A stretch of DNA of 37,477 nucleotides, taken from positions 1 to 37,477 of the forward strand of contig CANJDH010000041.1 in NCBI GenBank assembly GCA_947473125.1, written 5' to 3'. Under the pieces are notes generated by a model that did no database searches, had not been told where the DNA came from, and saw only the letters and a program-made list of their open reading frames with translations. This DNA is from Burkholderiales bacterium. GTDB lineage: Bacteria; Pseudomonadota; Gammaproteobacteria; Burkholderiales; JAEUOS01. Position 1 is the first letter of the stretch. Each line of letters starts with the position of its first letter. Both the position numbers and the translations under genes were made by a program. Below are positions 7,411 to 14,074 of the stretch, piece after piece.

Positions 7411-10400
7411 TCAGCCTTTAGGGGCCTTGGCCAGGGCCTGGAGCGCATCTCGCGCTTCCAGGTAGCGTGCATCGAGTTCGTCAAGCCAGCCCGCCATCGA
7501 GCTGTCGTCCTTGTCGCGCGCGGCATGCTCGAGGCGCCGCGCGACTTCCGCGACGCGAATCGCGCCAAGGTTGGCACTGGCTCCCTTGAAGCTGTGCGCC
7601 ACACGGCCAACCTCGTCGAGGTCGCCGGCGGAAAACGCCACGCGCAGGGCGGCAAGCCGTTCCGGCGCCTGTTCGGTATACATGCCGACAAAATCAACCA
7701 GGACACCCAGCGTATCGTCGAGTGAGATCAACTCTCCGACTTGCTCCATGTCGAGCGTGGCGTCCTGCTCATGCGGTGCCGCCGCGATCGCGGTGTGCGC
7801 CGGAATTTCAAGCTGCACCTGAGGATAATTCTCTTCGCGCCGTGCCTTGAATTCGGCCGCATGCGCCAGTGCCTCGGCCAGTGCGCGCATCTGGATCGGT
7901 TTGGAAACGTAGTCGTCCATGCCGGCGTTAAGGCACATCGCCCGATCGCCGGCCATCGCATTCGCCGTCATGGCAATGATGTAGGGCTGGCGTGCGAGAT
8001 CTATCCCGCCGCGAATGCGCCGCGTGGCCTCGAGCCCGTCGATCCCCGGCATCTGCACGTCCATCAGTACGCAATCGTAGGATTGCGCCATGGCCGCATC
8101 CACAGCCTGCAGTCCGTCGTCCACGCGCGTCGCACTGCGTCCCAGGCGTTCCAGCATTTTCTGGGCGAGCTTGGCATTGACATCATTGTCCTCCGCCAAC
8201 AGGATCAGCAGGCTGCCGGTCTGCGCGGCCAGTGCCGGCCTGACCGGCACTGACTCATCGCGCGTCAGGTCAAACGGACGGTCGGGCGCCAATGCGTCCT
8301 GCAAGGCATTGAAAATTTGCGACTGGCGCGCCGGCTTGAGCAGGTAGGCGCTAACCCAATTGGGCGGAACCTGGCGGCCATCGAAAGCCTCGGCACGCGG
8401 CGCGGACGACAGGATGATCACCGGCAGCCGGGTGTTATGGCGCTCGCAATGGGCGGCAATCGCCGCCGCGAGGTCAAGCCCGTCCATGTCGGGCATGGCC
8501 ATGTCGGTGATCACGGCGGCATACGGATTGCCCGACGCATGCGCATCTTCGATCATCGCCAATGCCGCGAGCGCGTCACCCGCCGACGTGGTGGTCAGCC
8601 CCCAGCCGGCACATTGCGCCGCGAGAATGCGCAGGTTGGGCGGGTAATCGTCGACCAGCAACAGTTGGTGCGGCAGCAGACCGGCTTCGCGAATCCGGCG
8701 GTGCGGGGCATTGCGGTCGACCGCCTTGGTACGGACGGTGAAAACAAAGCTGGTGCCTTCGCCGAAGGTGCTTTCGGCGTGGATCGCCCCGCCCATCAAT
8801 TCGACCAGGCGCCGGCAGATGGCGAGGCCCAGGCCGGTGCCGCCATACTTGCGCGTGGTCGACGCGTCGACCTGCGTAAAGGCATGGAACAGGCGGTCGA
8901 GCTTGTCTCCCGGAATCCCGATGCCGGTGTCGTGGACTGAAAACTCCAGGAGCAACGCATCGCCACTGCGTTCAGCCACCCTGCAGGCAATGCGCACTTC
9001 GCCCCGTTCGGTGAACTTGAGCGAGTTGCCGACCAGGTTGATCAACACCTGGCGCAGGCGCGTAATGTCACCGGCGATGAACGGCGGCACCCCCGGTTCA
9101 ATTTCGTAGAGCAATTCAAGGTTCTTGCGCCGCGCGCGGTCGCCAACCAGTTCGAGCGCATCCTCGATCATGCCGGCTACTTCGAGGGGCAGGTCCTCGA
9201 GCTCCATATGGCCCGATTCGATTTTCGAGAAATCGAGGATGTCGTTGATCACCACCAAAAGCTGGTCACCCGACAAGCGGATCGTATCGACAAAATCGTG
9301 CTGGTCGGGCGTCAGGGGCGTATCAATCAACAGCCCCGCCGAACCGAGAATACCGTTCAGTGGCGTACGGATTTCATGGCTCATGGTGGCCAGGAAGGCC
9401 GATTTCGCCTGCGCCGCCTCGGTGGCGCGCGCGTTCGCTTCGATCAACGCAAATTCGGCAGCCTTGCGTTCATCGATGTCGATGATCGAACCGGTAAAGC
9501 GCTTCGGCTCGCCGCCCGGGCCGAATTCGGCAACACCGCGCCCCATCACCCACAGATACGAGCCGTCAGCGCGTCGCAGCCGGTATTCGGAGGCGAAATA
9601 GGGGGTCTTGCGCACAAAGTGGGCGTCGCGCGCCGCTTCGACGCGCGCGCGATCCTCGGGGTGCACGAGTTCGCCGTGCAACAGCATCGGGTTGAGGTGG
9701 GTATCGCGCGGAAAGCCCAGCATTTCGCAATAGTGCGGCGAATAGTAGGAGCGGCCATCGGGCAACTCGCGATCCCAGATGCCGGCCTGCGCCGACTGGT
9801 TCACCAGTTCGAGCATCTCGCGCTGGCTCGCCAGTTCCTCGGCCAGCCGTTTGGATTCGGTAAAGTCGGTCACGGTCCCGATGATGCCCACCACGGTGCC
9901 GTCGGCGCGCCGCACCGCCGCCTTGCTGACGATGACATCAAACGCATGGCCGTCGGTTGCGACAATTTTGGTTTCCTGCCGGTCGACCCGTTCGGGGTTT
10001 TCGATCAGAGCCCGATCCTGGTCGAGGTAGCGATCCGCCTGGTCGGGTGAATGGACCTCTTCATTGCGCTTGCCGATCCAGTCCGAGCGCTTGCGCCCGG
10101 TCAGGCGCTCCCAGGCGCGATTGAAACTGACATAGCGGCCATCGAGGTCCTTGCGGAACATCGGGTTCGGGTTGAGTTCGACCAAGTCCTCGGAAAACTT
10201 AACCTGGTCGGACAACTCGCGCGTCATGCGCTCAGCAATCTCGGCGGCACGCCGTCGGGTGCGCATCAGAGACCACGCCAGGCCAAACAAGAGGAACGAA
10301 CCGGACAGCCCGCCGAACAGGATCCAGTAGGGACGGCGCGTTTCGAGCAGGCCGTCAAGCGCCGGGCTCGATTCGAACACCAGGCTCCAGACCTGGCCGT

Positions 10401-11136
10401 CCAGCACGGCGGTGGTGGTCTTGGCAAATTTGGCGACACCTTCTCCTTGTGCCGGGGCAAAAATCACGCTTTTGTCGCCGACCTCCCGCCCTTCATAGAC
10501 GCGCAGCCTGAAGTAGCCGGCATCGGCACGTGAGACCTGGGCCGCCAGTTCGTCAAGGCGCACACCGGCAAACACATAACCGGTGGTGCGCCGGCCCTGG
10601 CGCACCGGCAAAACCAGAAACGCCCCGGGCCCGACGCCAACTCGCCCGGGCATGCCCTCGATCTTTCGCGTCAACGCGGGCAGGCCATCCGTCTCGGCTT
10701 GCCGCATCGCGTCGCGAACCTCGGCACGGGCGTCCAGACGCTGCCCCGCCATCGAGTGGCGCGACCCGCTCAGGGTCGCCACAAGTTTGATCTCCGCTTC
10801 GGCAGGCCCCCTGTCGCCCGTCAGCTTCGCATAGCCGAGCTCGACCAGGCTCACGGGGGCATCCTTCTGCGTCAGGCCGGCGACAAATTGCGACCATTGC
10901 GCCTGGTCCGGTTCCCCGACCACGAATAACCCTGCCGCGCTGAACAGGTGCTGCTCCACGTCGCTGACGCCGGCCCCCAGCTCGCGGATCTTGCGGTTGA
11001 CCAGTTGGTCAAAGTACAGCGTCGAATCTTCGTGACCTTCCTCATACGTGAGGTAGGTGGCGGCGCCAGTAATGCACAACCCGGCGACGAGAACCAGCCA
11101 GTGAAGTGTGTGCCTGACCCGGATGGCCAAATTCAT
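7411..11136 (-). CDS. CHASE-PAS-PAS hybrid sensor histidine kinase with two receivers and HPt
   Basis: Inner-membrane sensor of 1241 aa. Order: TM helix (~12-30), periplasmic CHASE domain (~40-260, with the [13 protein letters not shown] and FLVLPVRQG blocks), second TM (~271-290), PAS (~315-435), PAS-PAC (~440-560), HisKA with His587 ([13 protein letters not shown]), HATPase with N-box Asn704, DTGIG at 736-740 and GGTGLGL, receiver 1 (Asp878, Lys934), receiver 2 (Asp1026 in [11 protein letters not shown], Lys1079) and a C-terminal HPt with His1181 ([11 protein letters not shown]). All catalytic and phosphoacceptor residues are intact. It starts 84 nt downstream of the receiver-cyclase-kinase gene on the same strand, which makes that protein's receiver the obvious final phosphoacceptor. 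CHASE domains sense small extracellular ligands; the ligand is unknown. Confidence 0.95.
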
Positions 11137-11220
11137 GAGCGCTTCCCGTCACATCGATGAGCTCGCATCCGCACCCGTCGTAGCATGTCAGCCGGTTCCG
11201 GTCCGCACGCCGTGCCGTGG

Positions 11221-13359
11221 TCAGGCGCCACGCGCCAGTCCCGAGCCGATGATGTACTCGATCAACTGGTTGGCATTTTCAAAGCGGTCGACCGGCTTCT
11301 TGGCCATCATCTTGTCGACCACGCCCTGGTACACCTCCAGGCCTGCCGGCAAGCGCGGGATCGGTGCATTGACGTGTTGGTACATCAGGGCCTGGGCGTT
11401 GTCCGCCTGAAACGGCCGGCGGCAGGTGAGCATTTCGAAGAACAACACGCCAAGGCTGTAGATGTCGGTACGCTGGTCCACCGGCAAACCGAGCGCCTGC
11501 TCCGGCGCCAGATAGTAGGGCGTGCCGAACACTTCACCGTGCTTGGTACGGTTGAAATTTGAATCAAGCTGCTTCGCAATCCCGAAATCAGCGAGCCCCA
11601 GGCTGCCGTCGGCGCGAATCATCACGTTGTCGGGCTTCATGTCGCGATGCACGATGCCCTGCGCGTGGCATGCCGTCAGCGCGCCTGCGATCTGCAGGAG
11701 AATCGCCACCGCCACGTCGGGCGCGATGCCGCGCGCGATCAGCTCGCGCAGGTCGCCGCCCGGGAAATACTCCATCGCGATGTAGGCGTGGTGCTCGGTA
11801 AAGCCCTGGTGGTGGATGCGCGCCACGTTCGGGTGATCGATCTGCGAAACCAGTGCGAATTCCTGCAGGAAGCGATCCATCATTTCGCCGCCGACCGGGT
11901 CGCCGTCTGCAGCGATCGGCAACATTTTCAGAACGTGCTGCGCGTGGGTTGCCAGCTCCTCGGCCAGGAACACCTCGGACATGCCCCCTTCACCGAGCTT
12001 CTTGACCAGCGAATAGCCTTCGACATTGATCGGCATGTTTCGCGTGACTTCGCCGGAAATCGAGTTCATGCGCTGCTGGGAACCCATCGCACTCTTGTGT
12101 GCGGAGGTGATCACGGCGGTATTGGCGGCAATCGCGGCGCCAACCATGTCGTAAAACTGGGTGTCCGCGCCGGGGCGGGCAGTGAGGCCGGCGATTTCGA
12201 CAATGTCCACCGTGCCGGTGCGGCCCTTGACCGTCAACTGACCGCTCTTACCGGGAATGAAACGGTGCCCCGCCGAAGTGGCGGTACCCTTGCTGGCGAC
12301 GATGCTCCAGCCCAACTCCTTGGTCTTGCCTTCCAGCCGCGATGCGATATTGACGGTGTCGCCGATCACGGTCGTTTCGCTGGCCGCCCCGCTGCCCATG
12401 CGGCACACCGAGACATTGCCGGTGTGCACGCCGACACCGATGGCAAATTCAGGCAGCTGGTGTTTTGGAAACTTTTCCTTGATCCAGGGCTTGAACCGGT
12501 GCGCCGCTACCACCATGAGCACCGCTGCCTTAAGGGCGCGTTCCGCGTGGTTCGGCCCGCCGGTTCGCCCGTCAAACATGGCCACCAGGCCGTCACCGAG
12601 AAATTTGACGATCCACCCACCCTGGTCGAGGATCGGTTCGCAAGCCTGCCCGAAAAAGGCGTTCAGGAATTCCACCGTTTGCTCGGCCGTCAGGATTTCC
12701 GATACGGTGGTGAAGTTGCGGATATCGGCAAACAGCACCGTACCGACGACATTCTCACGGTCGGAAATCGTACCCGAATCCGGAGGAGATCTCTCGTCAA
12801 CATCGAGCGACAAGCGATCCCGAAAATCGAGTCCGCGCCGGTTGCGTACCTTCGGGGCCGACACACCCGTTGTGAGCACCCGATTCGCCGACGTCACCGC
12901 ATTTACCCGATCCGCCGTTGCCAGCGCAGCGCCCTCGGAACCGGCGTCGGCAATCGCCACCTGCGGCAGCAGGCCCGACTGACGCAGCCCCTCCACCCGC
13001 TTGAGGCGCCCGGTAATGGCGTTGAGGAGATCGGCGCGCTTGACCGGCTTGGTCAGGAAATCATCGGCGCCCAGGTTCATGCTCTTGCGAAAGTTTTCGC
13101 GATCGTCAAGCGCCGTGAGAAAAATCACCGGGATCGAGGAAGTCTGCTCGTTTGCACGCACGGCGGCGAGCATGCCGAAACCGTCCATGTTGGGCATCTG
13201 CACATCGGAGACGATCACATCGGGGCGATTGGTCACCGCGTACTGCAGCCCCTGCAAGCCGTCCACCGCAGTGATGACGTCGTAACTCGCCGAGGCCAGG
13301 TGCAGGCGCACCAGCTCCCGAATGGTCGGATCATCCTCAACTACCAGAATGCTTGCCAC
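11221..13359 (-). CDS. Response regulator fused to class III adenylate cyclase and Ser/Thr protein kinase
   Basis: 712-aa cytoplasmic three-output fusion. Receiver domain ~1-120: phosphoacceptor Asp52, Lys104. Linker ~125-200. Class III cyclase ~204-390: metal-binding Asp212 (LFADIRNFT) and Asp256 (KFLGDG), adenine-selecting Lys252 and Thr335, transition-state Asn337 and Arg341 (DTVNIASR). The full residue set predicts an active ATP-specific (class IIIb-like) enzyme. Second linker ~395-445. Ser/Thr kinase ~447-710: Gly-loop GEGGMSEV (456-463), Lys478, HRDMKPDN (571-578), DFG (591-593), APE (618-620), all intact. No PASTA repeats or TM helix. It is the first gene of a pair with the hybrid kinase downstream. 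A weak promoter candidate is CACCAA/ATTGTA at 13457-13462/13433-13438 (reverse strand, 18-bp spacer). Confidence 0.95.
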   Translation of the reverse strand: MASILVVEDDPTIRELVRLHLASASYDVITAVDGLQGLQYAVTNRPDVIVSDVQMPNMDGFGMLAAVRANEQTSSIPVIFLTALDDRENFRKSMNLGADDFLTKPVKRADLLNAITGRLKRVEGLRQSGLLPQVAIADAGSEGAALATADRVNAVTSANRVLTTGVSAPKVRNRRGLDFRDRLSLDVDERSPPDSGTISDRENVVGTVLFADIRNFTTVSEILTAEQTVEFLNAFFGQACEPILDQGGWIVKFLGDGLVAMFDGRTGGPNHAERALKAAVLMVVAAHRFKPWIKEKFPKHQLPEFAIGVGVHTGNVSVCRMGSGAASETTVIGDTVNIASRLEGKTKELGWSIVASKGTATSAGHRFIPGKSGQLTVKGRTGTVDIVEIAGLTARPGADTQFYDMVGAAIAANTAVITSAHKSAMGSQQRMNSISGEVTRNMPINVEGYSLVKKLGEGGMSEVFLAEELATHAQHVLKMLPIAADGDPVGGEMMDRFLQEFALVSQIDHPNVARIHHQGFTEHHAYIAMEYFPGGDLRELIARGIAPDVAVAILLQIAGALTACHAQGIVHRDMKPDNVMIRADGSLGLADFGIAKQLDSNFNRTKHGEVFGTPYYLAPEQALGLPVDQRTDIYSLGVLFFEMLTCRRPFQADNAQALMYQHVNAPIPRLPAGLEVYQGVVDKMMAKKPVDRFENANQLIEYIIGSGLARGA

Positions 13360-13525
13360 GTTTGAATTATCCGGCCTTGTAACGAGGGAAAATGAGGGGT
13401 ATCAACGCCACTGCGATAGTTCGCGACTGCTGATTGTAGCAACCGGCAGGCCGCCACACCAAACCAGTGGTTCGCAAAGCATTAAATTTTGTGTCGATGG
13501 ACCGGACCGGCGCCTGCCGACGCGC

Positions 13526-14074
13526 TCAGAATGCCGGCTTTTTCTTGGCCTTCGCGTAGCGCTCCACCCCGGACATGATCGATTTGGCCGCATCCTTGGG
13601 GCCACCCCAGCCTTCCACCTTGACCCATTTGCCTTTTTCAAGGTCTTTGTAATGCTCGAAAAAATGGCGAATCTGCATCAGGCGCTCGGGCTGCATGTCC
13701 TGCGGCTTTTTCCAGTGCCGGTAGATCGGCAGGCTCTTGTCGGTCGGCACTGCCAGCAATTTTTCATCGCCGCCGGCTTCATCGGCCATTTTGAGCACGC
13801 CGATCGGCCGACAACGCACCACGACCCCGACCACCAGCGGAAACGGCGTGATCACCAGCACGTCAACCGGATCACCGTCGTCGGACAAGGTGCGCGGGAT
13901 ATACCCGTAGTTGCACGGGTAGTGCATCGACGTCATCATGAAGCGGTCGACAAACAGCGCGCCGGTGGCCTTGTCGACCTCGTATTTGACCGGGTCGGCA
14001 TTCATCGGAATCTCGATGATGACATTGAATTCATTGGGCAGGTCACGCCCGGCGTCGACACGGTCAAGATTCAT
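13526..14074 (-). CDS. ppa: Inorganic pyrophosphatase (family I)
   Basis: Cytoplasmic Mg2+-dependent enzyme hydrolysing PPi to two phosphates, pulling nucleic-acid and acyl-CoA/aminoacyl synthesis forward. At 182 aa it has the normal bacterial size. The signature DGDPVDVLV with its three metal-binding aspartates is present, as are the N-terminal [12 protein letters not shown] block, YPCNYGYIP and the C-terminal [19 protein letters not shown] block. The start is ATG 14074, which has AGAGGG 8 nt upstream; the frame is open further upstream but that part is not conserved. A perfect TATAAT lies 37 nt upstream. Divergent from the peptide transporter operon. Confidence 0.96.

Follow-up and report, generated by a model that had tools for sequence, protein, structure and literature searches.

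The sequence analyzed here (hereafter, the window) comprises 37,477 nt of contig CANJDH010000041.1 from the Burkholderiales assembly GCA_947473125.1 and encodes a 712-aa protein in which a phospho-receiver, a class III cyclase and a Ser/Thr kinase follow one another in a single chain, an order referred to below as the triad (Table 1). An inorganic pyrophosphatase gene lies 166 nt upstream on the same strand, and the next gene downstream encodes a hybrid histidine kinase. The gap between the triad gene and the hybrid kinase gene is free of terminator-like sites, and a promoter and terminator scan of positions 10950-13650 yielded no candidates, fewer than in shuffled sequences.

Table 1 Features of the receiver-cyclase-kinase locus, in window coordinates
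Feature	Coordinates	Strand	Residues	Remarks
Hybrid histidine kinase gene, likely phosphodonor	7411..11136	-		1241 aa; CHASE-PAS-PAS-HisKA-HATPase-REC-REC-HPt (Pfam); next gene, 84 nt downstream
Receiver-cyclase-kinase gene	11221..13359	-		GTG start; 712 codons and stop
Receiver domain	13015..13350	-	4-115	Pfam Response_reg 5e-28; D9, D10, D52, T82, K104
Linker	12766..12975	-	129-198	Predicted disordered, pLDDT <50; poorly conserved
Class III cyclase domain	12184..12762	-	200-392 (Pfam 207-380)	Guanylate_cyc 1.2e-13; D212, K252, D256, T330, N337, R341
Cyclase-kinase joining helix	12058..12162	-	400-434	Confident to ~residue 420; bears Asn413
Ser/Thr kinase domain	11284..12015	-	449-692	Pfam Pkinase 7.2e-46; K478, D573, K575, N578, D591

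Each of the three domains exceeds the curated cutoff of its Pfam family and has its active-site residues in place, bearing out the original prediction, made from the letters alone, of three intact signaling modules in one polypeptide; the residues listed there (D52, D212, K252, D256, T335, N337, R341, K478, D573, and D591) all stand at those positions in the translation. The receiver possesses the phospho-Asp D52, the acidic pair D9/D10, T82, and the conserved K104 of response regulators, whereas the kinase, for which StkP and PknB are the nearest solved chains by sequence, carries the complete Hanks-type set of Lys (K478), HRD Asp (D573), Asn (N578), and DFG Asp (D591). The class III adenylyl cyclase set is complete as well, with D212 and D256 presumably serving as the metal-binding Asp residues, K252 and T330 in base selection, and N337 and R341 at the transition state. 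The earlier inclusion of T335 among the cyclase residues stands only insofar as a Thr is found there: this is the T of GDTVN, but what we take to be the substrate-selecting position is T330 (TVIGDTVN), also a Thr, and Lys at 252 combined with Thr at 330 is, on the same assumption, the adenylyl-type pattern. A simple hydropathy analysis detects a single hydrophobic stretch, residues 540-567, inside the kinase domain.

The full-length AlphaFold model, based on 19 aligned sequences, consists of confidently predicted domains, the low-confidence linker 129-198, and the long helix 400-434; with a full-length pTM of 0.44, it does not predict the placement of the domains relative to one another. In a PDB search with the whole model, the best 50 matches were kinases only, and the cyclase was therefore modeled alone (residues 200-432; pLDDT 92.4, pTM 0.90), yielding a class III fold that matches the solved structures of Cya2 (Z 24.6), OaPAC (24.1), CyaB (23.9), and CyaC (22.9). 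As modeled, the flexible linker of ~70 residues suggests tethering and local concentration rather than a rigid rod.

The adjoining hybrid histidine kinase contains the H-box, receiver, and HPt motifs, and two hydrophobic stretches flank its CHASE part. The partner HPt invoked in the original prediction thus has a good candidate next door: the succession of triad gene, homologous hybrid kinase gene, and convergent M16 peptidase gene seen in the window recurs in 4/4 same-family genomes (L009-L012), in each of which the best match to the window's hybrid kinase is the neighbor of the triad gene, and on this comparative evidence the hybrid kinase is the likely phosphodonor. The search for homologous hybrid kinases covered 18 genomes, 13 of which matched at 1e-100. 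The window's hybrid kinase groups loosely (85/90) with those neighboring G179, L025, and L027, but four controls fall in the same group, which thus gives no clear support for a common lineage; G328 and G388 have neighboring kinases of a different type. A point against the leading interpretation given below is that in Derxia a histidine kinase gene lies nearby although the receiver Asp is lost.

Proteins colinear with the 712-aa protein are encoded in the same-family genomes L009, L010, L011, and L012 (best segments 72, 70, 70, and 74% identical, respectively), among which are MAGs and of which L012 has the gene cut by its contig end. Given these relatives, with the same gene adjoining, the ORF is not a chance one; the presence of the same domain order in several genomes rules out both a chance ORF and an assembly fusion. 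In a sample of 399 genomes from the same order, probably Burkholderiales given that the named loci belong to Derxia, Nitrotoga, and Burkholderiales MAGs, 15 genomes matched at E <= 1e-90, and in 14 of the 399 a single ORF contains receiver, cyclase, and kinase regions in the order seen here, so that the architecture is not unique to this genome. Besides the genome under study, 10 of the 14 were scanned with Pfam, and three (G001, G002, and G004) were assigned by BLAST and alignment. The receiver of G042 falls just below the Pfam cutoff and that of G127 just above it, the cyclase region of G179 is recognized by BLAST only (25%) and missed by Pfam, and G003 is counted by a second copy on contig C82, its operon copy being cut by the contig end. 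The fifteenth matching genome, G309, a Nitrotoga, encodes a cyclase-kinase without a receiver.

No triad was added by a sample of the class (369 genomes, E <= 1e-90), in which the only match was the genome under study, or by one of the phylum (398 genomes, E <= 1e-60), in which 10 genomes matched, although very diverged triads could escape these thresholds and, with the broader homologue list covering 79 of 539 loci, triads may also occur in other phyla. The 10 genomes were the one under study, the already known G293, and eight others with matches that fall within the kinase region or terminate there; a tblastn search with the cyclase domain at 0.01 gave no match in those eight loci (~1.5 kb flank).

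Several related gene arrangements were observed alongside. Nine loci (L014-L016 and L018-L023; eight from Candidatus Nitrotoga and one from a betaproteobacterium) encode cyclase-kinases of 588-591 aa without a receiver; in the three Nitrotoga-type rows that were aligned, HRD is changed to HCD and K252 to Arg. At L016/L112, receiver, MCP, and CheA-like genes come after the cyclase-kinase gene, and PP2C and FHA genes are oriented divergently. In Derxia, Nitrotoga, and G375, the gene for the triad or cyclase-kinase is followed by one for a receiver protein (L013:10175-10978, L016:9548-10483, and L118:5701-6591); these proteins are homologous and share an N-terminal part that is conserved but unassigned, and the Derxia receiver looks degenerate. 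At L093:1474-3794 (G019), a receiver-cyclase gene and a receiver-kinase gene adjoin, placing the two outputs in separate proteins.

Among characterized systems, CyaC of Spirulina (Arthrospira) platensis is similar in that it, too, is a class III adenylyl cyclase with this fold and under His-Asp control. It has its own histidine kinase, is reportedly activated by autophosphorylation and phosphotransfer (Kasahara and Ohmori, 1999, by its title), and has, to our knowledge, no Ser/Thr kinase output; in the window, a gene of its own encodes the histidine kinase, and the cyclase is followed in the same chain by a Ser/Thr kinase. The TOMM kinase/cyclase fusion family (TIGR03903), judged by its name, likewise joins kinase and cyclase in one chain, but the 712-aa protein scores 130.1 against a cutoff of 705.75, with a match confined to the kinase at the start of the 1267-position profile; its domains are also arranged differently and include a receiver. 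Nor does the protein belong to the PASTA PknB/Stk1 family (NF033483; 240.8 against 450, covering only positions 9-263 of 563). Closer to hand, the receiver-cyclase L134 and the tandem receiver-kinases L122 of the same genome, the Variovorax receiver-cyclase L027, and the betaproteobacterial receiver-kinase L025 share the input domain but have one output each. Pkn2 of Myxococcus xanthus also combines a Ser/Thr kinase and a cyclase-like domain in one chain, in the order kinase, cyclase, transmembrane segment, and the passages on it in PMC1262709 name no receiver; the 712-aa protein differs in its reversed order and in having its sole hydrophobic stretch within the kinase domain. Pairwise fusions (receiver-cyclase, receiver-kinase, and kinase-cyclase) are thus already known or were found in this analysis, in agreement with the earlier statement that receiver-cyclase and cyclase-kinase pairings exist separately, and the three-part order, of which searches of the open-access literature listed no description, is a new combination of known modules.

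Conservation was compared across 15 full-length triads, namely the window's own, L009, L010, L011, two from Derxia, G042, G127, G328, G143, G388, G375, G003b, G293, and G179, leaving out the contig-cut L012. The kinase residues K478, D573, K575, N578, and D591 are intact in all 15, the six cyclase residues in 12 (partly lost in G003b and G293, entirely in G179), and the receiver pair D52 and K104 in 11 (lost in both Derxia, G042, and G127); all three sites are intact in 8/15. Ser replaces G458 in G042 and G127, and Ala replaces T82 in G003b. By these counts, what stays constant is the kinase, and cyclase residues may disappear from proteins that retain the junction. Since cyclase and receiver residues are missing from 3/15 and 4/15 triads, respectively, neither is needed family-wide, a point against the two-output interpretation given below.

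In the three full-length relatives from the same family, the receiver (83-88%), cyclase (80-81%), and kinase (79-81%) are similarly conserved relative to the 712-aa protein and no domain is relaxed; the linkers are only 22-51% identical (22-27% for residues 121-200). A lost site goes with a relaxed domain in the Derxia pair (receiver 80% vs 93-94% for the other domains), in G042/G127 (receiver 59% vs 82-83%), and in G179 compared with the window's own protein (cyclase 24% vs 52-54%). This does not hold as a rule, because G003b and G293 show no clear relaxation (cyclase 43 and 36% vs 45-49 and 40-43% for the other domains) despite their lost residues. In G328/G143, although no site is lost, conservation is lowest in the cyclase (54% vs 70% for the receiver and 60% for the kinase); like the case of G003b and G293, this counts against the two-output interpretation.

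In the helix that joins cyclase and kinase, Asn413 is identical in 20/20 cyclase-kinase rows (16 triads including the truncated one, three Nitrotoga-type proteins, and Ram_L026), and two more alignments of 19 rows each agree. It is kept in G003b, G293, G179, and Ram_L026, all of which have lost cyclase residues. Among receiver-kinases that lack a cyclase, the position is Glu in L025 and gapped in L024, and by eye the stretch before the kinase contains no Asn413-type motif in the remaining receiver-kinase rows. Retention of Asn413 where cyclase residues are lost, without such a motif in receiver-kinases, suggests that coupling to the kinase is a role of the cyclase fold separate from catalysis.

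On the kinase tree, triads, cyclase-kinases, and receiver-kinases constitute one group of 32 rows (100/99), apart from six other kinases of the genome under study. A single triad clade on that tree (16 triads and 3 cyclase-kinases vs 19 other kinases) is disfavored (p-AU 0.026), and with it a single origin of the whole triad. On the cyclase tree, 20 triad and cyclase-kinase rows together with the Variovorax receiver-cyclase form one group of 21 rows (99/99), to which the CHASE2 cyclase of the same genome (contig C50) is sister (100/98); holding the 20 rows together without the Variovorax protein is not rejected (p-AU 0.126). The cyclase group, combined with the result against one triad clade, favors one cyclase gain followed by later losses, a history to be read with caution because the very long branches of G179, Ram_L026, and Var_L027 weaken it.

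Elsewhere in the genome, 12 Guanylate_cyc and 27 cNMP_binding matches were detected, and at least four Ser/Thr kinases possess a C-terminal cNMP-binding domain in a PKA/PKG-like layout (L130:1905-3179, L128:5508-6779, L131:2074-3465, and L132:1297-3885, on contigs C17, C101, C53, and C16), so that a path from cAMP to a protein kinase exists on paper. A cyclase-hemerythrin gene (L128:1988-3406) is located 2.1 kb from the kinase gene on C101. On contig C77 (L129:2283-10992), Pfam identifies genes for a CHASE2-kinase, a CHASE2-cyclase, and a cNMP-binding/rhodanese protein clustered together; two genes in between resemble, by eye, the Nitrotoga PP2C and FHA genes. The tandem receiver-kinase genes on contig C1 (L122:7099-9725) encode close relatives of the kinase of the 712-aa protein, and two further kinases of this genome (L123 and L124) have weak receivers.

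Our leading interpretation, to which we assign not quite an even chance, is that the 712-aa protein functions as a soluble response regulator whose two outputs are both enzymatic: a phosphorelay would feed Ser/Thr phosphorylation, and an intact adenylyl cyclase would act both as the second output and as a probable dimer scaffold. The CHASE-domain hybrid histidine kinase encoded by the next gene would sense a ligand outside the cell, and phosphate would pass from its His to its own receiver(s), on to its HPt, and from there to Asp52. The phosphorylated receiver would favor self-association of the protein, the class III cyclase domains would form a homodimer and make cAMP, and the cyclase dimer, by way of the Asn413 helix, may unite the two kinase domains at the C termini so that they phosphorylate each other in trans. 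The output common to the whole family would then be Ser/Thr phosphorylation, with cAMP as a second output in this lineage. Joint control of both outputs by the receiver is the least certain of these steps.

The residue counts across the triads and the persistence of Asn413 where cyclase residues are lost also fit a receiver-controlled Ser/Thr kinase as the only output, with the cyclase mainly a dimerization or ATP-sensing part making little or no cAMP. There are receiver-kinase relatives that have no cyclase, including the tandem pair in this very genome, and one such protein, L025, also adjoins a hybrid kinase with an HPt; but the window's own family keeps all six cyclase residues, with a cyclase as conserved as the other two domains, and we consider a kinase-only output rather unlikely. 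Asn413 bears differently on the possibility that cyclase and kinase share a tether and nothing more, the receiver gating only one of them or merely localizing the protein: an invariant helix argues for a selected junction. The long disordered linker behind the receiver is compatible with such independence, as is G019, where the two outputs reside in separate adjoining genes, but the G019 cyclase falls outside the triad cyclase clade and so is not a split descendant, and we regard two independent outputs as improbable. That the protein mainly serves to make cAMP, with the kinase an autoregulator phosphorylating its own cyclase or receiver, as the intact cyclase of the own family and the genome's complement of class III cyclase and cNMP-binding matches might invite, appears very improbable in view of a family-wide constant kinase and a dispensable cyclase.

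Two-component, cyclic-nucleotide, and Ser/Thr kinase signaling are usually studied as separate networks, and a conserved soluble protein joining the three would make joint gating of a cyclase and a kinase by one receiver directly testable; its interest rises if both activities are real. More speculatively, and with a chance we put well below even, the cyclase may be an enzyme and a coupling dimer scaffold at once, fused a single time and, on several later occasions, either lost or reduced to a pseudo-enzyme, with the kinase retained throughout. A His-Asp relay would thereby feed cAMP and Ser/Thr signaling from one switch, and the cAMP would be sensed by the cNMP-binding Ser/Thr kinases of the same cell, as a bacterial counterpart of the cyclase-to-PKA chain. 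The natural relatives, in each of which a single activity appears to be missing, could show how a cyclase may turn into a scaffold.
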